Source: Apostichopus japonicus
Taxonomy: Eukaryota; Echinodermata; Holothuroidea; Aspidochirotida; Stichopodidae
NCBI RefSeq assembly: GCF_037975245.1
Contig: NC_092575.1
Location: 28,171,341 to 28,235,340, forward strand
Length of the DNA stretch: 64,000 nucleotides
Direction: 5' to 3'
The position numbers were made by a program, and so were the translations under genes. The notes under the pieces were generated by a model. That model was not told the origin of the DNA, ran no database searches, and saw only the letters and a list, made by a program, of their open reading frames with translations. This document shows positions 26,001 through 47,171 of this stretch, piece after piece. The number at the start of each line of letters is the position of its first letter. Positions within the stretch are counted from its first letter, which is position 1.

Positions 26001-29000
26001 GCAAGAACCACAATCACAATGAAGACTGCAAGAGAATAGATTGTACTCCAGGCTTCATTGTCCCTATGATTACCCCCTTCCCACATACCTTATCATTACC
26101 CCTTTCCCATCCCTATGCTTATCTCCTTCCCACATACCCTATGCTTACCCGCTTCCCACATACCCTATGAATACCCCCTTCCCACATACACTAAAATTAC
26201 CCCTTCCCACATACCCTATGATTTACCCCATTCCCACCTACCCTGTGATTACCCCCTTCCCACATACACACTGTTGCCTACAGACACTGATTGGCAAACT
26301 CCATTTACTGTTGGTATATTCTGTTTCAAAGATATGAATGAATTTCTTGGTTAAAATCTGGTAATAAGTACATGCAGTAGATCTGATAATGTTTAATACT
26401 ACTGATGTTTCTGCTGCTACATCTCAATACGCTTGTTAATGGCCTTAAATTGAATCCAACATATACACACATATATACACACACATTCACAACATATACA
26501 CACTATTTGGGAGGTGTGTTGGTCTCCCGTTCCTGTGTTAGAAATAATATTACTGGACTTTAGGACATTTCAAATCTAGAAAATGATAGTATCTTCAATA
26601 AATTTGTTAATGTTGGATTAGGGTGTTTTTTTTTTTATGGGTACCAACTTGTGACATTGATACCAAAATTTCAAAATAAGTTGATTCCATAAAATAGTGA
26701 CTCATTCTAGAGTTCAGTATATGCAATTGATAATTTACAAGCAATTTTTGAGTTCAGGTCAACCTTATGTGCACAGTCACAACTTTAAATTTGACGTTTC
26801 GGATATGGTTCCACGTGTAAGTGGGACACCAAAGTGACTTGAAATTCCTATTAGTAGTTACAAGCAGGTTGCAGTTCTGAAACTTTTATCACTAATGAAC
26901 TTTGTAATGAATACCGCTTGAATAAATCAGCACTTGACAGTTCTTGCTTGAATATGAAAAACAAATTAGTGATGATAACGAAATTGAAATTGGCAATAAT
27001 GTGGTTTTCCCCATACATTATAAATATTTATTTCATTTTGAGTAAACAATAGCCTTCAGTTGAATGAAAAACACTTTTGAACATTGCAAAGAAGTTCTTT
27101 CACTACATATATCCATTTCATAGAACCATCCAAAAGAATCTTTCAGCAGATAAGACCAACTATCAAGATTCCCCGTGTAAGTGGGACACAAAATATTTGG
27201 TGTCCTGCTTACATATGGAACAACTACCATCGATCAAGTTTATATTTGCATAACATCCAACACGATATTAAATATCACTAGCAGTAACAAGAAACAATTC
27301 ATTAGCAGTGTCTACATGGTAACTAGATACAAGTCTGAACTTGATATCCAGAATTAATATAACTGGAACAAACTGTATACTGCACTGAAATCCGAAAAGG
27401 AAGTCATGCTGACCATAAGTCAGGTAAGTTTGGTATATTGTATTAATTCCTTACTAGAAGAACCATCCCACAGAAATCAAAACCATTGCAGTGTTTCCTT
27501 AGCTAAGTACACTGGTTAATAGAGAGGTGGGTATGAGGAGGAGGGGAAGGGGGTCAACAGGAATAATTGTTATCAACCTGCATACACTGTTACATAACTT
27601 CCTATTTACTGTACAGTAAGGTGTACAGTACACTAACAAAAAAATTGTACGCAAACAAGGCTTGAGAGTGGACGGTTTTCTTTCTTCTTACAAACAAACA
27701 ATTAAACTCCAACATTTAAAAAACAATTGAGAATATTAAAATGTAATTATATGAACTTTCACTATTAAACTTGCCAATTAAAGTGCAAAGTTTTTCATAC
27801 GATAATATACTCGCTATCAATTAACTAACAAAGTTTGTCCTTTATTTTCAAATTTAAATTCATTTTCATGCAGTTTCCACAGACATCAAACAAGGCTTGA
27901 GAGTGGATGGTTTACTTTCTTCTTACAAACAAACATTTAAACTTCAACATTTAAAAAAAATTTAGAATATTAAAATGTAATTGTATGAACTTTAACTATT
28001 AAACTTGCCAATTAAAGTGCACAGTTTTGTCATATGATAAAACACTCACTTTCATTAAAATAACAAAGTATGTCCTTTATTTTCAAATTTAAATTCATGT
28101 TCCTGCAGTTTCAACAGACATCAAACAAGACTTGAGAGTGGACGGTTTTCTTTCTTCAATAACATTTAAACTCCAACATTTAATTTTTTTTTAGAATATT
28201 AAAATGCAATTATGAACTTTCACTTTGAAACTTGCCAATTAAAAGTGCAGTTTTGTCATATGATAATACACTCACTTTCAATTAACTAACAAAGTATGTC
28301 CTTTCAAATTTAAATTCATGTTGAGGCAGTTTCAACAAACAGATCTACTTTTTTCTTGTAAATAACTCAAACAGTAACTTTATTAATTTTAAAATATGGA
28401 ATCGTGCAAAGAAAACACTTGCCACTAATAAGTCTTCTTTTAATGCATTTTCCAACAAGAAATCCATACAAAATAACTTTCTGACCTATGGCTACCAATT
28501 AATAACTTTATGCCTCCACCCACCTAAATTATTTGCTACATTTAACTGCTTAATCATTTTTAGATTCATCAAGATGAAGAATTACAAAACTCAATAAAAG
28601 TTACTTTTGAATGCAATCGCAATGCATCACACACATACATACACACATCATCACCATTGCATAGATTCATGTGGACTTTGGCATGGAATAAAAAGTGGGA
28701 AATTGATTACTAGACTTCATGCTGAACTTTCATTTTCATTTCATTATACAGAGCATCAACCTTTGCTTGACCAGCAATTGCAAAAGGCCCATTTCCAATC
28801 ATGTGAAGTGGCCCATGAATAACATACTTTCCATGAATTTTCTCACTGTCAGGCCTTTTTGGCCAATCATATATCATGCTCTTTGCGTTTCGCACCCTGT
28901 GCAGGAATTTAAAGATAAAGAAATCCCCATCTAAATCAACTAATTTTCCAACATAGTACTCGTTGTCATAAAATACTGCATAGTATTTTTCTTTTTCCAT

Positions 29001-32000
29001 GTTGATGCCCCGTTGATGTGGTCCAATCTTATATCTAGTCATTTGAGGGTCAGCAATGACTTCTGCAGAAGTATTAGGAGGAGCATCATAAGTCTTGGAG
29101 TTGCTGGGAGTAACATCATCAGTGTCACCATTGTCACCTGCAAAAAAGGATGTAATGTCTTCCTTTAAACAAACAATACTGTACATACATTGTACATTAA
29201 TGTTAAAGCTGAAAGAAAATTGGTTGAAAAGAGAGAAATTCAAGGTATTAGGGAAAGGTTGAGTGCTCTCAGGTTTTGGATGGTAGCTATATTATATTGT
29301 AATAGTGAAATTCAGAGACCTATTGCTATTTGAAATTCCCACAACAAATTTTAAAGCTGAAAGAGGAACCCCAGTTCTAAATTGTAGAATATCAGTAGTA
29401 CATTTTGCTGAATAGAGTTTATTACCTACATCAGAAACTACAGCAAATAAATTATATATTATATTCATGGTATTATAGCATGAACTTGTAGCAGTCAATG
29501 CATATTTAAAACAAAGAGAGAAAAAAAATATTTGGTTGTCCTTCATTAGGTACTATACCTTGTGCAGACAGTTTAAAATTCTTCCAATCATTCACATAGA
29601 GATGGTTTTCACAGTCTGTGTCATCTTCCTTCACACAAGCTGTGCAGAAACAGGACAGATTTCGGACAGAAACGACACCACCTTTGATGCTTTTCACACA
29701 ATGGATATTTCTAGTACCTGGCACAGTCTTAACTGATCTGTGGTATCTTTCCCTGTCAACTTCCTCCTGATGTACATAAAAGATTGTGCGTAGAAACTTG
29801 TCACAACAGTTGCCAGACTCTATACCCCTTGTCAGCTTCTCCTGACAATAGTCATACAAGCCCCTTGCATCTTTGATGATGACGCTCCCAGTCTTGACAG
29901 CAGTTGATGCATGAAACTTGACCACAGCACTCTCACCGTCGCTGGCACCCTTTCCATGACGGGTGCCTGAAAAATTATGTTGGATGGGGAACCCATAATC
30001 TTCAATAGAGTAGCTTATGTCCGATATGGGGCCTTTCGACTTGTACTGACTACTGCATCCATCTGAATAGCGGTACAGCCTGGTGACTGGTAGCTTCCGA
30101 GCCAAAGTAAGGTGTTGGCAAACAACCTGCTGGAATGCATTAACAAGATGATAGTCATGGGTTAGGTCATTGCTAATCATAATACAGGATTCAGTGACTA
30201 GCTGATCACACTGAGGGCACCTATAATAATTGACAATGGGATGGACTGTTACAGAATCTTGCGAGTAGTATGCGCTCTGGACTTCTCTTTGATATGCACA
30301 TTTGTAGTTTTCAGCAAAGTCCAAAATGCTGAGTACGGAGCCAGAGGGGAGATTCTGTTTTAATTGTAATTCTTGCTTGCGTTGCCAGTCCTTATTGAAT
30401 AGATGTTGTGCAAATGGTACTGTTTCCACTTTCAGTTCTTCAATCATATCTTTCACTGTTCCGGTTTTGATTATAAGTGAGCGTTTCTTAACAGCCTTGG
30501 TTGCTTTGTTGGAATGGTACATTGTCGATACAAGTTCCCATCTCTTCCACTGAATTTGTTTCTCTTCCTGTGTCAGCAAAGGTGCCAGGTGCGTATCTAT
30601 TTTGTCCACTCCACAAGTATCACATTCCCTCATAATACATATCAGTTTATGAAATTCTTCTCCTGTGGACTTCTCACAGAGGGTAAAACTAGTTAATGCA
30701 TAAGGATCTTTCACATGTTGAGAATGAGCATCAATGGCAGACAACTGAGCATTGGCTGAATTTATTTTCAACTGTATGTTTTCACAATACTCACACAGAC
30801 ACCCACTGTACTTTGCTTGTTGTTTGGTTTTAACATGACTGGGACGTAGTTTTGAGAAAGTTGAGAAGGAGACCTGTCCATCTGGGTAACATTTGTTGTA
30901 GAGCTGGTGTGATTCCTTCAAACTTCGGTCCATGATGTACCTGGGTTTTCCAGACTTCTTACCGACGAATTTCTTGTCTGGCAATTCATTTGAACTAATT
31001 TCATAGTAATGTTGAATGTCTTCAATTGTTGAGAGGGACACTCTTTTCCTTCCTGCAGAATATCGGATTGCCTTGCCAAGAACCTTTCTACTGACACCAA
31101 AACGTCTGCTAGCTTGTCGTTGAAACTTGCATTTCTTAACCACTGAAAGGATTGAGGCTAAGGATCTTCTTTTCAAGGAGGTCTTTGGTTCTTTGAGACC
31201 TATACTCACAGCATCCATAATCACATCTTCTAATTGCTGTTTCTTACTAACTCTAACACCAGCACTGCTAAAAGCAGATGTTTTAGTAGGAGAAGCAGTG
31301 CTAATCAAATCAATGGTAGTTGCAACAAATGCAGCTGTTTTCTTTGGCATGCTTTTCCTTGCTCTTTCTAAGGCTTTTCGCTTTGCAGCATCTGATCGGA
31401 TGTCAATACTCTCCTCCCCTTCCTTCTGTTTGGACTTTAACTCTTCTGTCATTAGCCTTAGTTCTTCCTCCTTTGCACGTAGCTGTTGTTCAAGCTCTTT
31501 TACACGTTGTGTTTCTGCTTGCAGCTTTTTCTGCTCTTCTTTAAAAAATTTGCTCATCGTATCTTTCTTTGATTGGTGATACTTTTCTCTTCTTCTCGCT
31601 TTAACTTTCTCTCTTTCCATCATCGACAAATTTGCACGCTGCTGCTGTTTCCGCAATCTGTCTTTGGATTTTTGTTTTTCATGTGCTGTTCTTGTCATTG
31701 GTTTCCTTTTTTTCTCTGCTTCTTTCTGAACTCGTCGTCGAGCTTGGTATTTCTTCATTCTTTTACGGCATCCATCATTGTAAGCCACTTTCCTATTGTA
31801 CCATACAAGAGCATTTTCCTGTTCTGCTGGAGAGAGGTTTCTCTTGCGTTGCAATTCTGTCTCTGCAACTGCCATCTCGAGCCTGTATTGCTTACTGTAA
31901 GCTTTTGCTTTTTCTTTTTCACTCTCATATTTCTTAGGATTCTTGATTTTTAGTTTGTCCCTCCAGTTCTGGGTCTTTGACTTTTTCTTCTCTAGCTGTA

Positions 32001-35000
32001 ATGTCTCCTCAGCGCCCCTGGAAGATTCCATACTCCTGGAGGCATCATGACCACAGTCTGCCGTCTTTACGAGGCGAACCCGGAGATTAAATGGCAGTGG
32101 CATATTTCACCACAAACTATACCTGCAATGCAATAAAAAATGTAGCAGATGAAATAAAGTCCTTATTACATCATAAAAAAAATCAAAAAAGATCACAAAA
32201 AACTGAGAGGATTGCTTCCTGGGCAGGGGGATAAAAAAATTAAATGAGGGGGGGGGGAGAGCAATACTAGAGACTTGAAAAAGATCAGCTTCAAATAATC
32301 AACACTTGAGAGTTGTACTATTTTTATAAGGCCTTTTATTATTTTTCAAGGTGAGAAGGGGGGGGGGTGGGGAGGAACCTATGATAGCCTATGTCATAGA
32401 CAGTTCTCTGGTTAGATCCTCGATGCCTGTTTGTTGAGCTAGCTCATCCTTTCTCAACCTGCTCATTTCTGCCAGGGCACTTAACTATGCTAAAAAATGT
32501 AGCAGATGAAATAAAGTCCTTATTACATCATAGAAAAAAATAAAAAAAGATCACAAAAAACTGAGAAGATTGCTTCCTGGGCGTGTATTTTTTTTTTCCA
32601 GGACGAACGTGGGCATCGGCCAATCAAATCCCTGGATTCCAAACATGTGACGCTTTTTCCAAAAACATGTTCTGAATCTTTTTTCCTAGTTTTGACCCCA
32701 GATTATGAACGACAATCCTGCAATTTCATAGAAACTGCATCCTTAACCCACTTTCTAAATCCTAACTCTGATTTCAAAGGAATTTGTAAATTCCTGAAAA
32801 ACCTGAAACCCACGTTCGTCCTGGGAAAAAAAAAGCTTCCTGGGAAGGGGGATAAAAAAAATTAAATGAGGGGGGTAGAGCAATACTGTATAGACTTGAA
32901 AAAGATCAGCTTCAAATAATCAACACTTGACAGTTGTACTATTTTTATTAGGACTTTTATTATTTTTCAAGGTGAGAAGGGGGGGGGGGGTGGGGAGGAA
33001 CCTATGATAGCCTATGTCATAGACAGTTCTCTGGTTAGATCCTCGATGCCTGTTTGTTGAGCTCATCCTTTCTCAACCTGCTCATTTCTGCCAGGGCACT
33101 TAACTATGCTATCCTAATCATAGCCTAATGTTATACTTATAGCTATGTCTATGTTAACACTGGGCTTAGTAACGTTAGGCTAGGCTTATACGTCTATGAA
33201 GTGAAAATAAAGGTATTAAAAAGATTTAGGCAAAGAATACTGAGCTATAAAACCAAACAGACCGAATTCCATACTTTTCGCTTCACAAAAGATGCCTAAA
33301 ATCAACGAGAGTTTCTCATCGTAACAACGTCATATAGGCTCGGACCTAGGCCTAGCCTACACAACATTTTGGTGTCCTGCAACGAACGTTACGTTGTTAC
33401 CAGTATTATTCCATCAATTCAATTATAATAAACGACAAAGCGTTTTAATCAGCTTAAAATGTGTTTGAAGCTACTTCGCGGAAAACATCCTACACATTAT
33501 CCTACTCAGCCGCGCTTCGAACGTTGCATTTTAATATACGCTTGCAGTAATTAACAGTTTTGTTTACATCGTAAGTTCAGGACACGAACACCATAGTGTC
33601 ACATTTGACAGCAACACTACATTGTGAAAGTAACCTTAGGATACCTCCGAGATAAACGATTACGGTGAGGGACTTTGACTTCAGTATTAACCTCGATCTA
33701 AATGTTTTGCATAGTTTAAGCTTCAAAAAAATAATTCTCACCTGTTTTTCTGCCACAGAAAGTTGTCACAACGTAAAATTAGCTACATCGTAAAAGTTAG
33801 GACACGAAATAAAACTTCAGCTTTTGTTTTCGTCTGCTACCATTTGTGTTTACGTAAAAGCGGGAATTCCCTCATCTACATCCGGGACATTGAATTAGCA
33901 GACGATAGTAAGCTTTACGCAATGTGTTAGTAAATACTGATCACTGAAGTTTATAACAACGTAAAATATTTTTAGGACACGAAATGAAAGACTAAAAGTT
34001 TCACCTGTTTATTTTCGAGACACTTTTAGCAATACCGTAACATTGTTTTCATTTATAGTATTGTTTGTCATCATTAACTCTTAAGCAGATAAAACAATGT
34101 AGTACATGCCTTTTATTTTCAAATATACATGGTGGAAAACTGATGTTCCCTACGTAAGTGTTAAGGACACGAAAACTTACGTCGTAAGTTGCAAAGTGAT
34201 CACTTCACTGCATAACGAACACGAACCAATATAAAGCGAAATTTCGAATAACGTGAAGGAGACCTATGTTATTATTTACTTCGAACAAATAATCGACGAA
34301 TTTACCCTGTTATGATAAAATACAGCATATTTAATAACAACTGTTGAAATGTCACAGATAAACAGCAAAAAATGATGGGACACCATTAACAAATCTACAA
34401 AAAAAACATGGTTGTCAACACATTTATTTTTTAGTGTTGGTACCATAACAAAGACATATTAATGCACATAAATATTTACCACATGAATAATTCATTGCAA
34501 CTTAATAGTGAGAAAGGATTAGTACACAAGGAAAGTGGTGCATTAAACAGCATTGGTACCCATAAAAAAATAAACACCCATTAACAAGTCTACCAAATTC
34601 TATTAGTTCCAATCTTCTGCAGTTTGGAACTTAACAGCTGTATTGTTTGGATCAGGCCTGCGTTGATAATGCAGCCAAGTGGTGTATAGATGCCAATTTT
34701 TGCAGTAACGTTTATGTATTTTAGCCTGTGATGCGGTAAATCTGTTCTAGATATTTGTTTGCGTTCAACAAAGACATCCAAATAGGCCACAGTTTAAGTC
34801 CTAGACCTTTACATTCATTACAATGAGTTTCTGTCTGAACATTTACCAACCTGCTTTTGTCATATAGGATTCTAGGCACAACCTTGAGTTTGTAAACATT
34901 CACTGATTACATGCATTTGTTCAAAGAAAATCTATCTTTTTTTGCTTTTGCAGATTCAAGATGCAGGGAACCACTTAAAAGCTGCTCTGAACATCATATC

Positions 35001-38000
35001 CAACACTGACTCTGACTGTGAATTTGAGACAGGAGAAGAAGTCGTCATGGTAATGAGTAGGATAGCTTAAAGGGATTGCCTGCTTTAATTAAATCAATAA
35101 TTAGAAGTACATTTTACCTTAAAGAGAAGACAAACAATTCAGTGATGACTGAAGGGAAAGTCCCTTGTCTATAAACATTGTACCAGTTTAAAAGGTTTTA
35201 ACCTTTAAAAAACTGTGATTTATTTTCTTAAATTTGAGAATAAAATGTAATTATTTCTCTCTATTTTTTAATGTTATCCACATTCTTTAAAACTGTAGTT
35301 AATGATGCAAACACCCTCCCCCCTTCCCTTGTGCACTAATTTTGATATTCTTAGCTACAGTATATTAGTTCATACATTTATGTAGACTATGATTAAGTGA
35401 TCAAATGTAAATAGTTTGCCAAACGACAAAGAAGGAAGCACAAAATAAAACATGTTTAATTAGGTATTAAGACGACATTAATTGATAATTTGGGATTCTG
35501 TGGTACGTTTGGGCTGGGATTGATTCATCACTAAAATGTATTTTATCAAAAATGGGATATTACCAACTGTCAGTTTTGGAGTAATATTAATTTAGGACTA
35601 GTGTGAACCCTTTAACATTGATCTATATCTAAACTACAGACATCATCGTACACCAAAATATAAACAAATTAATCTACGACCATTCTGGATGGGTGCCACT
35701 TCATACATGATAAGACTTCACCTTTAGTTAAGACTTTAATTTGAATGAAAGTACCCCTACACTTGTAGGCATCGTTGTATACGATAAAGTCAAGTCCTTG
35801 CTCTTAAATTTCCTCCAAGTGAAATTGATGTTCACGTCATTCTTTGATGAATCTTGTAAACAGTCTTTGGACTCAAAGGTGTAATGTTTTGAGAGTTTTT
35901 TTCCAGGAATTTCAGACTCTCTGTGTAATTTTCCCGTATTATTTTTCAAGCTAGACATATTTGCAATTTTAGTTGAACTTTGTCAGATTTGCAAACTTGT
36001 AGGTTTTTAACACCAAGCTGCTGTGAGATTGATTTGTCTGTTGACAAAGTGATTTTCAGACTCTTGGTACCAGCAGATAATGAAATGGTTTTAAAGGAAT
36101 GTTTCCAAATAAATGTTGTGAAAAAATAGAGCAGACAACAAATGCTCCTCAATGCTGGTTGAAAACTGTCATCCCTTTATCTTATTCCTTACTGTAGCCT
36201 ATGGATATAGCTAACTAACTCTGCTCAATGAATTCCTGTTACCCCAAGATTGGATTCACATGGTCTGGAAAGTCCTGTTTGTTTGTTTTTGTATGTCTCC
36301 CTCATCAAACAGTAACAAAAGGGATTAGCTATGTTATTAGACTTACTATCCGTAGCCTAACATTAGGTTGTCATTAGTGTGTAGGCTTCATAGTATATCC
36401 GTAAGACATGTTTGGCAATACATTCTTAATAAAGAGTGTAATTTCATCTGTTTAAAAGGGTGGGAACCATGTAGATTGCTGGATCATCTCCAGGAAATAT
36501 TCAGAGAAAAAATCAGTATGCCAGACTGATAGTTGAAGAGCCTTCCGAGATATTTTGAATAAAATCTAGATATGGTTATCTGAAGGTCGCTTATAAGATT
36601 AAGTGTGAGATAAGGTTTTGTTACTCCAGGAAACTGAATAGTATCCTTCAGCAGATGTTTGTAAGAGAAATGGCATCTTTTCCTCTTTGAATACCTGATT
36701 TGAAGACGATATAGAAATGATAAAGAAATAAAGACTTCTTTGCGGCTTTATCGTCATGGCGATGTCATTCACCTTGATGTGGTCAGGTATATTTACCAAA
36801 GCTAAAACATCCATACCTTCGTAGTTAAAAACGTTTAATGGGCGTGATTTTCACCAATTGATGGCAAAGGTTTACTGACAATTTTTTGGCTTATTCATCC
36901 TGAGTAAGCCATCATACTTCTTTGAAGTGTATCATTATGTGTACACACATTGTAATAACAGTTATTAATGGTAAAATGGATTTAATTACAAAATATTTAC
37001 ACTGATAACTTGCATCAGGGATTTGCACAGCTGTGTTTCAAGTGCTTTCTGAAATCAGACTGTAGTTGTACATGGTAAACAAAGGATACTTTATATACAG
37101 TACATATATAGCATCATAGCTTCATGAAAATTTGTTGGCTAATATAAAATTGATATAATTGCACTATGTCAGGTCTAGTACTATTAGGAATGGACATAAT
37201 GTTACAGAGCAGAGTAGAGAAAGTGGTATCATGTTGCTAAAAACTGCTTGTTGTTTTACTAATGTAAACATATCTTACCTATCAAAAATATGATTAATTA
37301 TTAATTTCTTATTTCAAGATGATCAGAGCAGATGTTTAACCTTTACAAATGTATCTGAATATAATAAACAGGGCAGGCATTGTTCTAAGCAATTAACTGA
37401 CAAGCCTAATTACTCACATCTTGTTTCATGAGACACCTTTGTTGAGAACACTGCAGGGTTACTTGATGAAATATAATTTGTTCAGAAATTTAAATATGAG
37501 AAATATGGTCATAAAGTTGATTGTCAATGATGCATTGTATTACATTTATTCTGCTTTATTCTTTTTTGTTTGAATTAGCTGATGGACAGCATTATGTCTC
37601 ACATCCAGAAAGGCCAGCAAAGACTCTTAAATCCTGCCAAACCAACGTTAGAAGATGTATTCTGTAATAAGTTCATTGTAAGTTACCATTGAAGCTCAGA
37701 AAAGTTACCATATTACACTATGTATGCTGTAATAAGTTCATTGTAAGTTACCCTTGAAGCTCAGAAAAGCTACCATATTACATGATGTATTCTGTAATAA
37801 GTTCATTGTAAGTTACCATTGAAGCTCAGAAAAGCTACTATATTACACTATTCATTCTGTAATAAGTTCATTGTAAGTTACCATTGAAGCTCAGAAAAGC
37901 TACCATATTACACTATGTATTCTGTAATAAGTTCATTGTAAGTTACCATTGAAGCTTAGAAAAGCTACCATATTACACTATGTATTCTGTAATAAGTTCA

Positions 38001-41000
38001 TTGTAAGTTACCCTTGAAGCTCAAAAAATCTACCATATTACACTATGTATTCTGTAATAAGTTCATTGTAAGTTACCATTGAAGCTCAGAAAAGCTACCA
38101 TATTACACTATGTATTCTGTAATAAGTTCATTGTAAGTTACCATTGAAGCTCAGAAAAGCTACCATATTACACTATGTATTCTGTAATAAGTTCATTGTA
38201 AGTTACCATTGAAGCTTAGAAAAGCTACCATATTACACTATGTATTCTGTAGTAAGTTCATTGTAAGTTACCCTTGAAGCTCAGAAAAGCTACCATATTA
38301 CACTATGTATTCTGTAATAAGTTCATTGTAAGTTACCATTGAAGCTCAGAAAAGCTACCATATTACATGATGTATTCTGTAATAAGTTCATTGTAAGTTA
38401 CCATTGAAGCTCAGAAAAGCTACCATATTACACTATTCATTCTGTAATAAGTTCATTGTAAGTTACCATTGAAGCTCAGAAAAGCTACCATATTACACTA
38501 TGTATTCTGTAATAAGTTCATTGTAAGTTACCCTTGAAGCTCAGAAAAGCTACCATATTACATGATGTATTCTGTAATAAGTTCATTGTAAGTTACCATT
38601 GAAGCTCAGAAAAGCTACCATATTACACTATGTATTCTGTAATAAGTTCATTGTAAGTTACCATTGAAGCTTAGAAAAGCTACCATATTACACTATGTAT
38701 TCTGTAATAAGTTCATTGTAAGTTACCATTGAAGCTCAGAAAAGCTACCATATTACACTATGTATTCTGTAATAAGTTCATTGTAAGTTACCATTGAAGC
38801 TCAGAAAAGCTACCATATTACACTATGTATTCTGTTTAAGTTCATTGTAAGTTACCCTTGAAGCTCAGAAAAGCTACCATATTACATGATGTATTCTGTA
38901 ATAAGTTCATTGTAAGTTACCATTGAAGTTCAGAAAAGCTACCATATTACACTATGTATTCTGTAATAAGTTCATTGTAAGTTACCATTGAAGCTTAGAA
39001 AAGCTACCATATTACACTATGTATTCTGTAATAAGTTCATTGTAAGTTACCCTTGAAGCTTAGAAAAGCTACCATATTACACTATGTATTCTGTAATAAG
39101 TTCATTGTAAGTTACCCTTGAAGCTCAGAAAAGCTACCATATTACACTATTCATTCTGTAATAAGTTCATTGTAAGTTACCATTGAAGCTCAGAAAAGCT
39201 ACCATATTACACTATTCATTCTGTAATAAGTTCATTGTAAGTTACCATTGAAGCTCAGAAAAGCTACCATATTACACTATTCATTCTGTAATAAGTTCAT
39301 TGTAAGTTACCATTGAAGCTCAGAAAAGCTACCATATTACACTATTCATTCTGTAATAAGTTCATTGTAAGTTACCATTGAAGCTCAGAAAAGCTACCAT
39401 ATTACACTATTCATTCTGTAATAAGTTCATTGTAAGTTACCATTGAAGCTCAGAAAAGCTACCATATTACACTATTCATTCTGTAATAAGTTCATTGTAA
39501 GTTACCATTGAAGCTCAGAAAAGCTACCATATTACACTATTCATTCTGTAATAAGTTCATTGTAAGTTACCATTGAAGCTCAGAAAAGCTACCATATTAC
39601 ACTATTCATTCTGTAATAAGTTCATTGTAAGTTACCATTGAAGCTCAGAAAAGCTACTATATTACACTATTCATTCTGTTATAAGTTCATTGTAAGTTAC
39701 CATTGAAGCTCAGAAAAGCTACCATATTACACTATTCATTCTGTAATAAGTTCATTGTAAGTTACCATTGAAGCTCAGAAAAGCTACCATATTACACTAT
39801 TCATTCTGTAATAAGTTCATTGTAAGTTACCATTGAAGCTCAGAAAAGCTACCATATTACACTATGTATTCTGTAATAAGTTCATTGTAAGTTACCATTG
39901 AAGCTTAGAAAAGCTACCATATTACACTATGTATTCTGTAATAAGTTCATTGTAAGTTACCCTTGAAGCTCATAAAAGCTACCATATTACATTATGTATT
40001 CTGTAATAAGTTTATCAGTAATATAATCTTGGAAAGAATAATACCTCTTCAAGTTCTGTTTTGTAATATAAATTCATTGTTAGTTAGTTTTTAACCTGTT
40101 ACCCCTGTTACTATAGGATGTATTCCGGAGTTCATTTGAAATTTTTAGTCCCAAATCTGTGAATTTGCTGTGAACTTAGAATGATGATCTCAAGTCAATG
40201 AGTCTGTGGTAACTTAGAACAATTATCTCAAGTCAATGAACTGTGGTAATGTAGTATGCTGCTCATGTTTTACGAGTTTGTGGAAGAATAAGACAGAGAT
40301 TTCAAGTTAATGGTTAAGACTGGCATTTAAGATGAGTCCACTCTTCAAATGTTCTAATACATCAATTTAAAAATTTATTTTGAACAATGTTAATATCTAG
40401 TCTGGATATACAAGAAGACCATGATGATGATATCGTCATATTTTTTATGGTTGTGAAATTTAAACAGAACCGTTACATGAAGGATGCATTCTTTTCTCTC
40501 TTGAGGATTAGTAACTTTTTGGATTCCCTCCGATGTTATCTTCAAACCATGGTATTAGCTTTTCTTCTCTTCTCCATTATCCTCCAGAAAAGCCTTTATC
40601 CACCTCTACCCCAGGACATGCTCCTAGATTTTTACTTACAAGGGGCAAAATTGGTTCTTCAAGTTTATCATTTACACGCTTCTCCGGTGCCAAAGCTCCA
40701 AGTAAGTTCCTCTTCTTCCTCTGCTTCTTTCTTTCATTCAATGTTATCCAGACAGATTAAATGTACTTACCCATTACCAGTTCAAAATAAAAATTAAAAT
40801 AAAATAAAACTGTTAGCAAACTGCTTTTCCACTAGAGAGCCTGTGTAGGAGAATGTGTAAAGTTGTGAAGTTGTGTAAAGTAATGTGTAAGTTGGCCTGA
40901 CGTTTTGATCCTCTTCAAAGGATCTTCTTCAAAGGCTAAATGACAAGTAACAGTAACAGAAGGGACAAAAACACGCACAGAAAACAGACAGGTTAATGAG

Positions 41001-43593
41001 CATGACGAACACTAAGAGATGGATGTAAGGGGATTAGTAGACAAGGGATGGAGAGAAGAAAGAAAGAAACCAACAGGGGAAGAGGAGAGGTAGGAGATAA
41101 ACAGTGGAGGGACAAAGAGAGGATTAAGGGAAGGGGCTTGGGAATTACCAGTTCCTAAGAATCACCCGGTGATCACTCGGGTGTCACATGATCATTCTTC
41201 CCTGGTTGATTTCTTGCTTGACAGTCGTACAATAATGTCAACACACTCTGTACAGACAGGCTGGTTGGTTACTATGGCAACTGTATTATTGTACAAGTAC
41301 TGCATTAACTCCATGAAATGAGTTCTGCTCAATTCCAGCTCAAAATAGGTTTTCACTTGTTAAGAACTTGTTTGCTATTTCCTAGGTAGATTTCCATGTT
41401 CTTTGTTTACTTATATGTGTCTAAATATCGGCATTTACCTTCAGAGTTCGGTTCTTCATGAACACGTCTCCAATTCTTGCACAAAAGAAAAGTTACCAAG
41501 CAGTAAATAACACTTCGGGTTGGTACTGGTTTCTTGACTTGACAATGTCCTCGCTACTTTAAAAAAAAACTTGAGTTATGTAATATTTATTTCTGTAATG
41601 TAACTATTTGATTTTATTGAGCATTAAGATAAGATTGTGTTAAGTTTGATATTGTGTTTTTTTTTCTCATGAAACAGAAACCTAGTATTATCACTGCAGG
41701 ACCTCGAAATAGGAACATAATGTAAGTATATTTTAATAGAATCATTAACAGGAATTATATCTCCATCTGTTAACTGAAATGATACCCTGGGCAAATCATT
41801 AAATATGCCACATTGGTAACACTTTCATTTGCATTTCATTATCGGGTTTAAAAATAGAAATGACCTTTGGACATCCTTTGTCAGGAACAAGGTCAGGAAC
41901 AAGGTCAGGAACAAAGATGGTCGTGGAAGCTTCCAAGAAGCAATACACACAACAAGGGAAAAGTAATGCACTTTTGTGATCTCAGATTTATAGTTCTTAG
42001 TATGGAACTAAATCTTACAGTTGATTTTGTTTTTTGGGATATTCCCCCACCCCCCTCCCTCCTCCGGGGGTTGGTGAAAATAAATCTGCTGATGTTGGAA
42101 ACAGTGGCAATGTGAAGGAAATATTGAAATAACGTTCTTGTTAGTTTGACGAGAAAATCAATTGTTTTCCAGATACTGTGCAAGTCAGCTTGTTAGAGAG
42201 GATCTTATGTAGTTCAGATCTGTCAGTCAGGTCTGTAAATAATGTAACTGACATGAGCTGTTGGATCTTATTGTCTTCACAGAGAAATTGGATCTTCGAA
42301 ATATGAAGTCGCAACAACAGCAACGGTTGAGTCTCACATTCCGTGGGTCAGAGAGGTCATCACTTGCTTGACCTTTGCCCTTCAGCTCTGCCAATCACTT
42401 AAAGACAAAGTAGGTGTAATAATGTATAAATTGAATTTAACGCCACTCAGTTTGTATCTTGAGGACATCGTAGTCAAGACCACTACACTCTCATCTATTT
42501 TTTGTAAGATGCTCTGTTTTGGTTTAAGTTTATCAACAACATTTTTCTTACCGCAGTGCTGCCCTCATCCTTCTTTCATTCAAACCTTCCTGGCTTAAGA
42601 TTTTACTTTTTAACTGCTACAGTGAATTGTTTAACCTTCTCATTACTATGGTTTAGGATTGTGACTTCTGTCATTCCTTCTCTGTGTAAGATTGGGACAA
42701 GGGTCCTATTGTGAGGTGGTCATGTTTTATCTGGGGACATGATATGGTGATGTTGCTACCCCACCGCCCCCCTTCTGTTGACATAACATTTAGCGGGAGG
42801 GGTGGCATTTTGAGGATCACCAAGTGTTTTGTTGGTTCTATGTTTCTAGGATACACCCAAATTTGAAACACCTCATCCAGGCACAAGTATTTTCGTTTGT
42901 TTGAGATAAAACTCCAATTCCAAAAGACATGTAGGTAACTGGAAGTCTCATTCTTCATCATTAGTGCTTTCCATGTGAATTTAAGGCCATGAAATCTGGG
43001 TTGCTTAATTTGTGAGCCGTGAATGAACTTAATTTTGTGGTATTAACCAATCACAGCTCTGTCTACAAACAGGAAACTAAAGATAGTCAGGGCCTATTTC
43101 AAATTGTGAGGAAATTCCCAGGGCAGTAGGCTTATATAAAATCCAGGGACATTTCCAGGATACTTTTAATCAGTAGACAGTCCCTGGATTTCATGTAACA
43201 TCCCCAGGAGTCTCTCTTCCTCAAACACCAAGCTAGGCGAAGGCACCCCCTTCATCATTTCTGCAGCTCAGCTTTGGTGAACATGGATGTTTCAGAACCA
43301 TTTGAAAGAACAGGACCAAACCTTAGTTATCAATTTGCAAACCAGAAATACCAAATCCACAGAAGACTTCCGCCCTCAACAGCACCGAAACAGGTATGAA
43401 AATGTCAAGAGAAATTCTAGTTCCTGGTCAGGGTTTGAAAAATTAAATAAATTTATGCCAAAAAAAAAGAAAACAAAAAGAGAGAGTTGAAGGGCATTGA
43501 CTTCTGTTTAACACATCTTTATCTTTATTTTTATTTCTATAGATTCAAGTATTTTCAACTTACTGGAAGAACAGGTTACCTGCAGCAAGATAA
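4968..43593 (+). CDS. ROGDI: ROGDI homologue (Rav2-like leucine-zipper protein), 12 coding exons
   Basis: Coding exons: 4968-5006, 9840-9911, 10963-10996, 24191-24242, 24836-24890, 25702-25794, 34954-35049, 37579-37677, 40588-40701, 41678-41721, 42283-42409, 43543-43593. All introns are GT-AG and all phases agree (0,0,1,2,0,0,0,0,0,2,0), giving 876 nt and 291 residues; human ROGDI is about 287 as I recall. Family landmarks in order are EDEFHWLLDKEVHSIL, GVKGVVTLTGDVISKA, RVQQIQDAGNHLKAAL, LQVYHLHA, ESHIPWVREV, LQLCQSLKDK and IQVFSTYW. In the family, ROGDI is the animal relative of yeast Rav2, works with rabconnectin-3 in V-ATPase assembly, and loss of human ROGDI causes Kohlschutter-Tonz syndrome. 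Oddities: intron 3 exceeds 13 kb, intron 6 hosts an antisense gene, and intron 8 opens with a donor-site minisatellite. An in-frame ATG at 4908 would add 20 residues; I prefer 4968 because its N-terminal length fits the family. Identity is very sure; the exact start is less so. Confidence 0.95.
5007..9839 (+). other. ROGDI intron 1
   Basis: An AT-rich 4.8-kb intron with GTAAG and CAG ends. The first part contains several TAGGCCTA-like palindromes (about 5130-5270 and 6121). No conserved exon or structured repeat was recognised in the rest. Confidence 0.8.
9840..9911 (+). CDS. ROGDI: ROGDI coding exon 2
   Basis: It encodes residues 14-37, including EDEFHWLLDKEVH, the most recognisable N-terminal block of the family. 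The acceptor is TTTCAG, the donor is GTAAGA, and both ends are phase 0. Confidence 0.95.
9912..10962 (+). other. ROGDI intron 2
   Basis: A 1.05-kb intron. It contains a TATCGAT-rich stretch near 10320-10440 with a locally repetitive ATATCGATAT pattern, and TACTGTA words near 10555. No gene is seen. Confidence 0.75.
10963..10996 (+). CDS. ROGDI: ROGDI coding exon 3
   Basis: This short exon encodes DCSHRFLPLHT (residues 38-48) plus one base. It has a pyrimidine-rich TTTACAG acceptor and a GTAAAT donor. It fits the place of the segment following the QLQDILK block in vertebrate ROGDI. Confidence 0.85.
11755..12149 (+). repeat. Left cluster of the 15-bp GGTAACTCGCATTAC motif
   Basis: Exact copies start at 11755, 11933, 12120 and 12135; the last two are directly adjacent. 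The first lies immediately inside the left terminal inverted repeat. Two of the four copies are followed by the same CACTTTTT tail. Repeated subterminal words of this kind are often transposase-binding sites; that role is inferred here. Confidence 0.8.
12359..12505 (+). repeat. Two-copy 73-bp tandem duplication
   Basis: A segment beginning near TTGTTGACTGACAAGATTGC is repeated once directly, about 73 bases later, with a few substitutions. It lies in the interior of the TIR transposon. Confidence 0.6.
13717..13931 (+). repeat. Right cluster of the 15-bp GGTAACTCGCATTAC motif
   Basis: Copies start at 13717, 13735 (one change, TCACATTAC), 13751 and 13917. Three of them are packed within 49 bases. 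The cluster is about 370-585 bases from the right terminus, roughly balancing the left cluster, but the copies keep the same orientation instead of mirroring. Confidence 0.8.
14605..15000 (+). repeat. Degenerate tandem repeat
   Basis: Variants of AAAGGGATACA followed by a GTTACATCATTAC-like word and an ACTGGGATATG-like word recur about five or six times at irregular spacing. The pattern is an old, decayed minisatellite. Boundaries are approximate. Confidence 0.5.
16470..16925 (+). repeat. Degenerate tandem repeat of CTTTGATCTGTATCAAGTAC
   Basis: Eight or so variants of CTTTGATCTGTATCAAGTAC, usually followed by an ACCCTA word and a GATCAGG word, recur at uneven intervals. The core can pair with itself because TTGATCTGTATCAA is close to palindromic. 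No coding content is seen. Confidence 0.6.
21036..21300 (+). repeat. Overlapping short segmental duplications
   Basis: A block containing ATAACCATTATTAAACCTG is present twice (from 21044 and 21102). The next block, containing CAGAGAGCTGTTACATC and TGGTTCACAGACTC, is also duplicated (about 21136-21210 and 21214-21298). The copies are similar, pointing to recent local duplication. Confidence 0.65.
21300..21675 (+). pseudogene. Decayed 3' end of a CR1/L2/Rex-like LINE
   Basis: Across frames one can see the C-terminal signature of a non-LTR reverse transcriptase: a PHLWN word around 21412, then an LASFK word and a KTHL word ending near 21505. It is broken by stops and frame changes. The following segment ends with a GGTGCATTAAAATG word and an ATT-rich tail, as L2/Rex elements do. 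It is an inactive fragment. Confidence 0.55.
22434..22466 (+). repeat. TG microsatellite
   Basis: An almost pure TG run with one TATG interruption. Confidence 0.95.
24191..24242 (+). CDS. ROGDI: ROGDI coding exon 4
   Basis: Read in phase 1 from exon 3 it gives residues 49-65 with the block SETFVLSSA, matching the ENFILGS region of vertebrate ROGDI. A T-rich tract and CAG precede it, and a GTAAGT donor follows in phase 2. Confidence 0.92.
24243..24835 (+). other. ROGDI intron 4
   Basis: A 593-bp AT-rich intron with a pyrimidine-rich end before TTCGTAG. A chance open frame (24542-24835) runs into exon 5 but has no protein similarity that I can see. Confidence 0.85.
24836..24890 (+). CDS. ROGDI: ROGDI coding exon 5
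   Basis: It encodes residues 66-84, GNGVKGVVTLTGDVISKA after the split codon, equivalent to the VKGVLTLQGDALSQA block of vertebrate ROGDI. The donor is GTGAGT. Confidence 0.95.
24891..25701 (+). other. ROGDI intron 5
   Basis: An 811-bp AT-rich intron with a C-rich patch near 24990 and an ATCA microrepeat near 25103. Nothing else is recognised. Confidence 0.8.
25702..25794 (+). CDS. ROGDI: ROGDI coding exon 6
   Basis: It encodes residues 85-115, from DISMRYSVKGNNQIL to WRVQQ. It aligns with the VNLKMPRNNQLLHF and WKLQQ portion of the family. The donor GTACAT is weaker than the others and opens the 9.2-kb intron that hosts the antisense gene. Confidence 0.95.
26059..26268 (+). repeat. C-rich minisatellite, about 25-bp unit
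   Basis: About eight imperfect copies of a unit built on CCCACATACCCTATGATTACC. The strand is strongly pyrimidine-biased. Open frames across it (26041-26354) give only a low-complexity repeat peptide and are not genes. Confidence 0.75.
26816..27215. repeat. GTAAGT-GGACAC motif cluster
   Basis: GTAAGTGGGACACCAAA occurs at 26817-26833, a near copy at 27176-27192, and an inverted copy TTTGGTGTCCTGCTTAC at 27199-27215. The last two face each other as an imperfect palindrome. Related GGACACGAA copies lie on the other side of the nested gene at 33.4-34.2 kb. Confidence 0.55.
27656..28341 (+). repeat. 235-bp tandem repeat, three copies
   Basis: Units start at 27656, 27891 and 28126 with CAAGGCTTGAGAGTGGA or a near variant, exactly 235 bases apart. 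The third is slightly shorter through small deletions. Units are AT-rich and share a CAATTAAAGTGC word and a CAGTTTC end. The array lies just 3' of the nested minus-strand gene. Confidence 0.85.
28378..28383 (-). terminator. Candidate poly(A) signal of the nested gene
   Basis: TTTATT on the plus strand gives AATAAA on the minus strand about 330 bases past the stop codon. An ATTAAA alternative lies at 28438-28443. Confidence 0.35.
28710..29137 (-). CDS. Nested transposase-like gene, coding exon 2
   Basis: It encodes residues 849-990. An acidic, Ser/Thr-rich linker (GDNGDTDDVTPSNS) leads into a compact beta-rich segment with YYAVFYDNEYYVGKLVDL and a DWPKRPD turn, then a short helical end. The acceptor TTTTTTGCAG is strong. 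The frame also runs upstream of the acceptor to 29243, but that part is intron. Confidence 0.85.
28710..32103 (-). CDS. DDE-transposase-like protein nested in ROGDI intron 6, 990 aa, two coding exons
   Basis: Coding exons are 32103-29559 and 29137-28710, joined by a 421-bp intron (AAG/GTATAG donor, TTTTTTGCAG acceptor) with exact phase agreement: 2973 nt, 990 residues. An in-frame TGA two codons upstream supports the start. Visible parts: a basic coiled-coil-like region (residues 40-250); a helix-turn-helix-like ASRRFGVSRKVLGKA (331-345); Cys pairs at 435/437/440, 494/497, 629/632 and 818/820/823; an RNase-H-fold-like core with D595 (ILDFAENY), D681 (YSDGCSSQYK) and D722 or E724 (HGKGASDGE); and a C-terminal Tudor/SH3-like KYYAVFYDNEYYVGK domain from about residue 897. 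I recall similar unnamed proteins in many invertebrate genomes. Intact frame and a spliced last exon fit either a live transposase or a domesticated gene. It is transcribed against ROGDI. Confidence 0.85.
29559..32103 (-). CDS. Nested transposase-like gene, coding exon 1
   Basis: It encodes residues 1-848 plus one base, with no stop or frameshift over 2.5 kb. It carries the coiled coil, the helix-turn-helix-like segment, the zinc-type cysteines and all three candidate catalytic acids. Reading past the donor at 29558 adds only a short tail before a stop, so splicing to exon 2 is needed for the conserved-looking C-terminus. Confidence 0.9.
32136..33110. repeat. Two-copy tandem duplication, about 355 bp per copy before insertion
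   Basis: Copy A runs about 32136-32488 and copy B about 32489-33108. Both start AAAATGTAGCAGATGAAAT and end CTTAACTATGCT. They share the G-tract, the GATCAGCTTCAAATAATC word and the GATCCTCGATGCC word, with only minor changes. Copy B is longer because it contains a 253-bp MITE plus its target duplication. Confidence 0.85.
32572..32844. mobile_element. 253-bp MITE with long TIRs inserted in copy B
   Basis: The element (32582-32834) has inverted ends CCAGGACGAACGTGGG and CCCACGTTCGTCCTGG bordered by T and A runs. GCTTCCTGGG is present on both sides (32572-32581 and 32835-32844), and the equivalent site in copy A (near 32215) has it once and no element. This empty-site comparison proves insertion after the duplication. 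The target duplication is at most 10 bp (8 bp is also compatible). It has no coding capacity. Confidence 0.85.
33570..34180. promoter_or_regulatory. GGACACGAA motif cluster, candidate promoter of the nested gene
   Basis: AGGACACGAA, or GGACACGAA preceded by a CGTAA word, appears near 33581, 33800, 33975 and 34165, with an inverted GTGTCCTGC near 33372. The segment has more CpG than its surroundings and contains two possible first-exon donors for the nested minus-strand gene. A promoter role is inferred from position only; the repeats may instead be a decayed satellite. Confidence 0.35.
34954..35049 (+). CDS. ROGDI: ROGDI coding exon 7
   Basis: It encodes residues 116-147, starting IQDAGNHLKAAL, equivalent to IQDARNHVSQAI in vertebrates, and ending in an acidic stretch. 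The donor is GTAATG. Confidence 0.95.
35050..37578 (+). other. ROGDI intron 7
   Basis: A 2.5-kb AT-rich intron. No repeat, gene or conserved exon was recognised. Confidence 0.75.
37579..37677 (+). CDS. ROGDI: ROGDI coding exon 8
   Basis: It encodes residues 148-180, beginning LMDSIMSHIQKGQQRL. Its last 22-24 bases and its donor TT/GTAAGT form the first copy of the 65-bp tandem array that fills most of the next intron, so this donor is repeated 35 more times downstream. Confidence 0.95.
37654..40014 (+). repeat. 65-bp minisatellite that copies the ROGDI exon 8 donor
   Basis: The first unit overlaps the last 24 bases of exon 8 and its authentic donor at 37678. The unit then repeats every 65 bases (one copy lacks a base near 38835) up to the last donor at 39952, giving 36 intact TTCATT/GTAAGTTAC sites. 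A final partial unit has lost the donor. Three flavours differ before the core: ACACTATGTATT, ACACTATTCATT and ACATGATGTATT. The ACACTATTCATT type dominates 39140-39830, showing local homogenisation. Because 65 is not a multiple of 3 and each unit has an in-frame TGA soon after the authentic donor, use of any downstream donor would truncate ROGDI. Confidence 0.97.
40015..40587 (+). other. Distal part of ROGDI intron 8
   Basis: Unique AT-rich intron sequence between the minisatellite and exon 9, ending in a CT-rich tract before CCTCCAG. Nothing else is recognised. Confidence 0.75.
40588..40701 (+). CDS. ROGDI: ROGDI coding exon 9
   Basis: It encodes residues 181-218, with PPLPQDMLLDFYLQG and LQVYHLHA matching the ALPSDLLVNVYINLN and VYQLHAL blocks of the family. 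The acceptor is CCTCCAG and the donor is GTAAGT. The frame stays open upstream for about 200 bases, but that part is intron. Confidence 0.95.
40702..41677 (+). other. ROGDI intron 9
   Basis: A 976-bp intron with a purine-rich GGAGAG/GAAAG stretch (41040-41130). No gene is seen. Confidence 0.75.
41678..41721 (+). CDS. ROGDI: ROGDI coding exon 10
   Basis: It encodes residues 219-232 (KPSIITAGPRNRNI) plus two bases. It replaces a longer, poorly conserved linker found in vertebrates. The acceptor is AAACAG and the donor is GTAAGT. Assignment depends mainly on phase agreement with exons 9 and 11. Confidence 0.8.
41722..42282 (+). other. ROGDI intron 10
   Basis: A 561-bp intron containing a three-copy GGTCAGGAACAA micro-tandem (41880-41913) and a C/G-rich patch near 42050. 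No gene is seen. Confidence 0.75.
42283..42409 (+). CDS. ROGDI: ROGDI coding exon 11
   Basis: It encodes residues 233-275, with ESHIPWVREV and LQLCQSLKDK matching VECVIPWLNDA and LQLCQQLKDK of vertebrate ROGDI. It has a CTTCACAG acceptor and a GTAGGT donor. Confidence 0.95.
42410..43542 (+). other. ROGDI intron 11, with a possible alternative exon
   Basis: A 1.1-kb intron. A segment at 43267-43393 has a CTGCAG acceptor and an ACAG/GTATGA donor and contains a 37-codon frame from an ATG at 43283 that would join exon 12 in phase. Included as a cassette after exon 11 it would bring an early stop. Its reality is unproved. Confidence 0.5.
43543..43593 (+). CDS. ROGDI: ROGDI coding exon 12 (terminal)
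   Basis: It encodes the last 16 residues, IQVFSTYWKNRLPAAR, then TAA. Vertebrate ROGDI ends with the related ISVFSSYWSYRPF. The first downstream AATAAA candidates for poly(A) addition are at 44256 and 44409. Confidence 0.93.
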   Translation: MQVFSTYWKNRLPAAR

Positions 43594-46525: not shown

Positions 46526-47171
46526 CAATGCTGTTGATAACAACAGTGTTACTAGTACTATTAATACTAGTAGTAATAATAAAGCTAGTAGGGATACTAG
46601 TGCTCTTTGCAAATACTAGTACCACTAGTAATAACAGTGCTGTTGATAACAACCGTGCTACTATTACTATTAATACCAGTAGTATTAACAGTGCTGTTAA
46701 TAATAACAGTGCTACTAGTACTATTAATACTAGTAGTAATAATAAAGCTAGTAGGGATACTAGTGCTCTTTGCAAATACTAGTACCACTAGTAATAACAG
46801 TGCTGTTGATAACAACCGTGCTACTATTACTATTAATACCAGTAGTAATAACAGTGCTGTTAATGATAACAGTGTTACTAGTACTATTAATACCAGTAGT
46901 AATAACAGTGCTGTTAATGATAACAGTGCGACTTGTACTATTAATACTAGTAGTAATAATAAAGCTAGTAGGGATACTAGTGCTCTTCGCAAATACTAGT
47001 ACCACTAGTAATAACAGTGCTGTTGATAACAACAGTGCTACTATTACTATTAATACCAGTAGTAATAACAGTGCTGTTGATAACAACAGTGTTACTAGTA
47101 CTATTAATACCAGTAGTATTAACAGTGCTGTTAATAATAACAGTGCTACTAGTACTATTAATACTAGTATT
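46526..47171. repeat. Period-3 satellite with higher-order repeats
   Basis: The array is built from ACTAGTA, ATAACAGTGCTGTT and TATTAATAC words, all in multiples of three bases. A block with AAAGCTAGTAGGGATACTAG recurs near 46575, 46740 and 46961 as a higher-order unit. Because the period is a multiple of three and stops are rare in most frames, open frames over 100 codons appear on both strands. They encode only Ser/Asn/Thr-rich or Leu/Val-rich simple peptides and are not called as genes. Confidence 0.9.

Follow-up and report, generated by a model that had tools for sequence, protein, structure and literature searches.

A Minisatellite Carrying 36 Tandem Copies of a ROGDI 5' Splice Site in Apostichopus japonicus, With Similar Arrays Behind Exons of at Least Seven Further Putative Genes

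The ROGDI Locus and Its Authentic Donor

The window analysed here is the whole 64,000-nt stretch of Apostichopus japonicus contig NC_092575.1 between 28,171,341 and 28,235,340, and positions are counted from its first letter. Judged by homology, the host gene of the array described below is ROGDI, nine exons of which were found in the window (at 9840, 24836, near 25703, 34954, 37579, 40588, near 41679, 42283, and 43543). The exon search started from the human sequence, and matches to 5xqh and PF10259 later agreed with it. No counterpart of human exons 1 and 3 turned up in the window, for exon 3 also with a relaxed scan. The features next to the array are as follows.

34954..35049, + strand: preceding ROGDI exon, from homology, followed by a 2,529-nt intron up to 37579
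37579..37677, + strand: ROGDI exon, 99 nt long with phase 0 on either side, from gapless homology; the final 24 nt (37654-37677) supply the exonic part of unit 1
37678..37683, + strand: authentic donor GTAAGT, first of 36 and the sole donor giving a conserved, stop-free junction
37690..37692, + strand: in-frame TGA read from the sequence of unit 1, cutting short every product that runs on to a later donor
40588..40701, + strand: next ROGDI exon, from homology, 114 nt, a multiple of 3

When exon 37579-37677 was joined to exon 40588-40701, the product gave a gap-free alignment of 65 residues with human ROGDI (residues 137-201 of 5xqh, E 5.8e-8) and matched PF10259 (124-187, E 1.4e-10). Because this homology spans the junction without gaps, the donor at 37678 was assigned as the authentic one. 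The intron that bears the array extends over 37678-40587 (2,910 nt). The upstream exon had been called exon 8 in a first-pass annotation, a number that the nine exons found, with the equivalents of human 1 and 3 missing, do not support. We take it to be equivalent to exon 7 in human numbering. There was no evidence of a ROGDI retrocopy, in which the junction would be visible: the genome search with PF10259, which can miss weak matches, matched only exon 40588 and below the cut-off. The genome searched comprised 671,581,487 bases in 35 contigs. One contig, of 16,099 bp, is the mitochondrial genome, in which cox1 shares its strand with the two rRNA genes. Translated with table 5, its COX1 has AAA at sites where asparagine would be expected, in keeping with the echinoderm code, and the order of its genes agrees with that of sea cucumbers or sea urchins.

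Structure of the Array

The array and its parts are listed below.

37654..40012, + strand: 65-bp minisatellite of 36 full units (unit 36 ends at 39992) and a partial unit without a donor
37743..39957, + strand: 35 decoy donors, the first GTAAGT at 37743 and the last at 39952
39148..39862, + strand: run of 11 units (24-34) of one variant type, with T and C at unit columns 4-5

TRF called 37655-40012 with a period of 65, 36.3 copies and 96% matches. Each unit is made up of 24 nt of exon end and 41 nt of intron. The sequence TTCATTGTAAGT occurred 36 times in the window, always inside the array and at a spacing of 65 bases with a single step of 64, while the 16-mer TTCATTGTAAGTTACC gave 37 matches at up to three mismatches, 36 of them exact, compared to 1.48 expected from shuffles. 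TTCATT/GTAAGT was intact in all 36 full units, and the donor positions from -3 to +8 were invariant across the 36 aligned units. These results confirmed the observation of a minisatellite spanning the boundary. The 36 tandem ROGDI donors of the first-pass annotation stood, as did its 65-bp unit holding the last 24 exon bases and the donor, on which alignment and junction homology agree, and its description of every unit as a decoy donor in exonic context (24 exon nt per unit). The exonic part of the units equals the real exon end except at column 1, where the G of the exon is also present in four further units. An extra, 37th GTAAGT lies within the exon-derived part of unit 10.

The units differed at 14 of 65 alignment columns, with a mean pairwise identity of 95.8%, and the variants of the 18 distinct units formed a mosaic common to several units. 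The sequence of units 24-34 identifies this run as an apparent recent local expansion. Seen in one haplotype, the mosaic and the 11-unit run suggest turnover of the array, and a variable unit number, as had been proposed, is likely from this internal structure.

Tandem arrays are notoriously hard to assemble, and the real copy number might be much smaller or the array spurious. We regard the chance of this as close to negligible: size and contig number agree with those published for A. japonicus (671.60 Mb, 34 scaffolds), an assembly built from HiFi reads with a mean length of 14.7 kb, about six times the array (PMC10344927), and the variants inside the array form an ordered mosaic. A chance repeat or artefact is rejected on the TRF call, the shuffle expectation and the HiFi-based assembly. 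Two other classes were considered and rejected. A coding VNTR does not agree with a unit of 65 and a TGA 12 nt past the exon end, and an introner does not agree with a 301-bp query that matched the ROGDI locus alone; this search, which skips very common words, found no second locus in the 671.58-Mb genome.

Consequences of Decoy Use and Choice of Donor

Use of a later donor had been expected to add 65 bases per unit, shift the frame and include an early TGA. The 65 bases and the TGA hold; the frame shift does not hold at every third donor, which brings the frame back. Extension by k = 1, 2, and 3 units included the TGA at 37690-37692 each time. Because it lies in unit 1, every decoy product would be truncated, and transcripts using decoys would probably be degraded by nonsense-mediated decay. 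Skipping of 40588-40701 would be in frame, since its 114 nt are a multiple of 3.

The predicted U1 pairing of the authentic donor was -5.4 kcal/mol, the second weakest among eight scorable ROGDI donors, and this donor therefore has no advantage of strength. In predicted RNA folds the mean unpaired probability was 0.396 for the decoys and 0.348 for the first donor; the decoys were as accessible as the first donor, and hiding by folding is not supported. Position is therefore a simpler explanation than concealment, and the choice of donor likely rests on position and not on strength or structure. The unit was also considered as a cassette exon and rejected, its CTCAG pseudo-acceptor being weak with 7 pyrimidines in 16, compared to 10-14 in the real acceptors (nine ROGDI acceptors, two of them offset by one base).

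Human data reported by Carranza et al. (PMC9225289) bear on this choice. With near-equal donors, exon-defined events favour the upstream donor, and when two identical donors were placed in five minigenes, the upstream one was used exclusively. The ROGDI exon of 99 nt, flanked by introns of 2,529 and 2,910 nt, belongs to the long-long class, for which these authors found the upstream preference. Taken over all events without a strength filter, the downstream donor is favoured in about 60% (PMC9225289), and the authors refer to the classical rule of intron-proximal choice, under which the last ROGDI decoy would be expected to prevail.

Donor-Bearing Arrays Elsewhere in the Genome

The first description implied that the array is unique, which the rest of the genome contradicts. 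When triples of AGGTAAGT with similar gaps were searched for genome-wide, 372 matches were obtained, compared to 465 for the reversed control pattern, and triples of NAGGTAAGT gave 57 vs 40, 46 vs 39, 48 vs 43, and 166 vs 197. Because the reversed controls match about as often, donor-like motifs are not overrepresented in arrays. Matches are not the same as arrays in these searches, the gap ranges limit the unit length, and the first 100 of the 372 and of the 166 matches were used. At least 30 distinct arrays were present among the matches listed, and 29 were examined at the 5' edge (C1:2475216 was omitted, its unit being that of C1:2433740); 20 of the 29 were fetched whole. The mirror control with acceptor arrays (TTTTGCAG triples, 100 of 354 matches listed) was discarded as uninformative, because the listed matches were mostly one dispersed repeat family.

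Seven of the 29 arrays start where a coding exon ends, with homology that reaches the first donor or comes within 3 residues of it. Their putative host genes, with the supporting match, TRF copy number and length of repeated exon, are as follows.

Family 21 glycosyltransferase: PF13506, 1.6e-10; 10.5 copies; about 35 nt of exon
Protein tyrosine phosphatase (PTP): PF00102, 1.7e-10; 14.5 copies; about 9 nt of exon
KRI1: PF12936, 5.6e-28; 27.3 copies; about 36 nt of exon
Serine palmitoyltransferase 1 (SPTLC1): plant homologue 7yjm, 1.1e-5, and 6m4n, 4e-5; 47.4 copies; about 2 nt of exon
DDX42: 8dpe, 1.6e-13; 26.2 copies; about 29 nt of exon
Gephyrin: 2fts, 4.9e-16; 7.5 copies; about 3 nt of exon
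GDA1/CD39 nucleotidase: PF01150, 1.5e-13; at least 73.8 copies, a lower bound, as the array reaches the limit of the sequence analysed; about 36 nt of exon

The glycosyltransferase gene is presumably UGCG. Among the other 22 arrays, 8 are possible cases (L019, L023, L027, L029, L030, L032, L038, and L046) and 14 gave no exon evidence, which does not prove that an exon is absent. Counting ROGDI, a stop lies between the first and second donor in every one of the 8 genes but SPTLC1. The authentic donor of SPTLC1, GTGAGT, fits the consensus more poorly than most of its decoys. Judged by homology, the recurrence in ROGDI and at least 7 further genes of one genome appears to be new.

The published gene count of A. 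japonicus is 19,828, with mean lengths that imply about 5 introns per gene (PMC10344927). This corresponds to roughly one donor per 6.6 kb, and the window contains roughly nine arrays of at least 3 copies. As a rough estimate from one window, this base rate predicts hundreds of donor-seeded arrays genome-wide. Donor choice among identical sites is usually studied with two-site constructs. The arrays place 7 to at least 74 donors behind what homology marks as real exons, and they do so in no fewer than eight genes of a single animal; they may serve as natural experiments in splice-site choice. RNA from the same species would directly test exon-centred against intron-centred rules of proximity, for example in SPTLC1 with its weaker authentic donor.

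Conservation of the Decoy Donors

The number of GTAAGT equals the number of units in UGCG, KRI1, DDX42, the nucleotidase gene, and ROGDI (with one extra in ROGDI), and the decoys are not being purged in these five genes. Some donors have been lost elsewhere: SPTLC1 has 38 GTAAGT in about 47 units, gephyrin has 5 in about 7.6, and PTP has also lost some. The ROGDI donor is covered by an invariant run of 20 columns (P 0.056 by chance), and the invariance of the donor in ROGDI alone gave P 0.095 for 9 nt and 0.039 for 12 nt. When the eight exon-seeded arrays were pooled, the donor windows varied less than cyclic windows of the unit, with P 0.011 for variant types and 0.022 for variable columns; P was 0.030 with ROGDI removed. 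Four other arrays that may be exon-seeded showed no such signal (P 0.43 and 0.46), nor did nine comparison arrays, which include one possible exon-seeded case (L046, as L065; P 0.26 and 0.31). The ratios of donor to other error rates differed between exon-seeded and comparison arrays (Mann-Whitney P 0.029).

These values bear on a reading in which the decoys offer U1 snRNP a platform, kept by selection, that strengthens a weak donor or guards the intron from premature polyadenylation. The second-weakest rank of the authentic donor, the intact donors within the invariant stretch, and the pooled result set against the comparison arrays would agree with it. But 7 of the 8 arrays were found by requiring three intact copies of AGGTAAGT, so that the conservation signal is biased to intact donors; the signal weakens without ROGDI, the 9-nt value of ROGDI and the 0.43 of the further possible arrays speak against it, and donors have been lost in SPTLC1 and gephyrin. 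With several P values and no correction for multiple tests, we see a hint of selection on the decoy donors, and we rate the U1 platform as very improbable.

Comparison With Known Systems

By its sequence, the ROGDI array can be classed as a mirage minisatellite, a large example of a kind that is known but little studied. The name reportedly comes from a paper in Nucleic Acids Res in 2002. Mirages have been described in amphioxus in Adh3, the globins BflGb6 and BflGb9, troponin C, and PGBD5, with instability of length and in somatic tissue (PMC3087553, PMC3902484). The amphioxus arrays and that of ROGDI share a tandem repeat across the exon-intron boundary, splice signals in each unit, one authentic copy and homogenised units. 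In ROGDI, homology supports the 24 nt of exon and 41 nt of intron in the unit, GTAAGT is present in 36 of 36 units, and a stop-free conserved junction is obtained from the first donor alone. The systems differ in size, as BflGb6 has 6 and 3 units in two haplotypes and ROGDI 36, and in extent, as acceptors are included in some amphioxus cases and ROGDI repeats the donor side alone. The host is a lancelet in one case and a sea cucumber in the other, and instability was demonstrated in amphioxus whereas ROGDI is known from one haplotype. No report of mirages in echinoderms was found in the literature searched, which covers few subscription papers; the ROGDI array extends the phenomenon from amphioxus to an echinoderm.

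Human ABCA7 carries a highly polymorphic 25-bp VNTR that starts at the donor of exon 18 (PMC5954066). The ROGDI repeat likewise includes the authentic donor as its first unit and multiplies donors, and use of a decoy one unit away breaks the frame in both. The ABCA7 unit begins at GT without exon bases, and its effects on splicing were measured, whereas ROGDI is known from sequence. The SPTLC1 and gephyrin arrays resemble ABCA7 because little beyond the donor is repeated. In ABCA7 the second donor is used in 2 ± 1% of transcripts irrespective of VNTR length, while skipping of exon 19 rises and expression falls with length (PMC5954066).

It had been proposed that the choice of donor tunes the dosage of ROGDI. 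This is not borne out by the minigenes with identical donors, which used the upstream one only (PMC9225289), by the normal splicing described for the amphioxus arrays, which are reported to yield no aberrant mRNAs (PMC3087553, PMC3902484), or by the constant low use of the ABCA7 decoy. The relation of ABCA7 length to next-exon skipping and lower expression (PMC5954066) favours a dosage effect. In a control of this type, more units would cause more skipping of 40588-40701, or slight decoy use followed by decay, and unit number would set the output of ROGDI. In its favour, the length of the following ROGDI exon is likewise divisible by 3, and all extended products are truncated. Against it, the 65-bp unit is unlike the C-rich 25-bp unit of ABCA7, the decoy isoform of ABCA7 does not change with length (PMC5954066), and the amphioxus arrays are described without aberrant mRNAs (PMC3902484). 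We consider this control unlikely in ROGDI. With the ROGDI array, the disease-linked ABCA7 VNTR can be compared with a case outside humans.

Two other systems also duplicate sequence at splice sites. Intron 1 of Sparus aurata myostatin-2 has a block of about 150 bp at its 5' end that is polymorphic in length and inherited in a Mendelian way, but it is present in one or two copies and the predicted extra site is an acceptor (PMC3045353). Introners and intron gain through tandemly duplicated AGGT sites share the duplicated splice-site sequence, and the globin paper proposed mirages as a source of new introns (PMC3087553/PMC3902484); in contrast, copies of the ROGDI unit are not spread among genes, and its weak pseudo-acceptor gives no sign of a new intron.

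Origin and Interpretation of the ROGDI Array

We infer, with a probability of roughly 0.8, that the array is a minisatellite that grew by chance from the boundary, with the first donor selected by exon definition and the decoys nearly silent and neutral. A tandem duplication across the exon-intron boundary, taking 24 nt of exon and 41 nt of intron, would have started it, and unequal exchange or slippage would have extended it into the intron, with unit 1 alone coding. The spliceosome would couple the upstream acceptor to the closest donor on the other side of the 99-nt exon; exon definition is proposed because both flanking introns exceed 2.5 kb. The first donor would be used and the other 35 would leave with the intron, while use of a decoy would cause a frame shift or include the TGA of unit 1, and the transcripts would probably be lost. 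Minisatellites are abundant in this genome, and therefore some would fall on donors and be tolerated, with ROGDI among eight or more such cases.

The pooled conservation of the donors (P 0.011 and 0.022) is not what strict neutrality predicts, and ABCA7 shows that such arrays can alter splicing (PMC5954066). The weak authentic donor and the classical intron-proximal rule also stand on this side. A bolder view would treat donor-multiplying minisatellites as a genome-wide class, in which selection keeps the decoys as a ladder for U1 behind a weak donor and unit number is a mutable setting of splicing strength; we find it distinctly improbable. The ROGDI array is striking yet explicable by chance growth, and its recurrence in one genome adds interest. 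For growth by chance speak the mosaic of variants and the 11 like units, which are what repeated duplication predicts.

Donor Arrays Elsewhere in the Genome

In SPTLC1, an array of about 47 units was located in the A. japonicus assembly (G000:C2:10269103-10270906; fetched loci L020 and L048). The authentic donor of this gene is GTGAGT and the majority of the decoys read GTAAGT. SPTLC1 is a natural example of an array in which most decoys are nearer to the consensus than the authentic donor. A further array, at G000:C16:19697300-19697765 (locus L030), is built of units with GAGGTAAGT and adjoins an open frame. Its first in-register copy carries TTAAGT, not GTAAGT, and this is possibly an array whose first donor has changed.

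Tandem donors were also found in a GDA1/CD39-family gene (G000:C5:21710731-21714200; loci L035 and L053), where the unit is 47 bp. The number of GTAAGT motifs in the fetched stretch was 74, which means at least 74 donors, since the array extends beyond the 3.5 kb fetched.

Other Features of the ROGDI Window and the Assembly

The following features were observed in the window:

38252-38257, an additional GTAAGT in the exon-derived part of ROGDI unit 10, caused by a substitution in that unit
29506-32106, minus strand, an 866-residue stop-to-stop open frame within a ROGDI intron, for which there was no Pfam match
27652-28341, a 235-bp unit present three times in tandem in the same intron
46529-47169, a nested minisatellite with periods of 54 and 217 bp, lying 3' of the last ROGDI exon found; each of its strands has long open frames, the largest of 179 aa

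Apart from the window, the 31,219-bp contig G000:C29 carries pieces of COX1 in several positions, and it is probably a second mitochondrial sequence, rearranged or multiplied.
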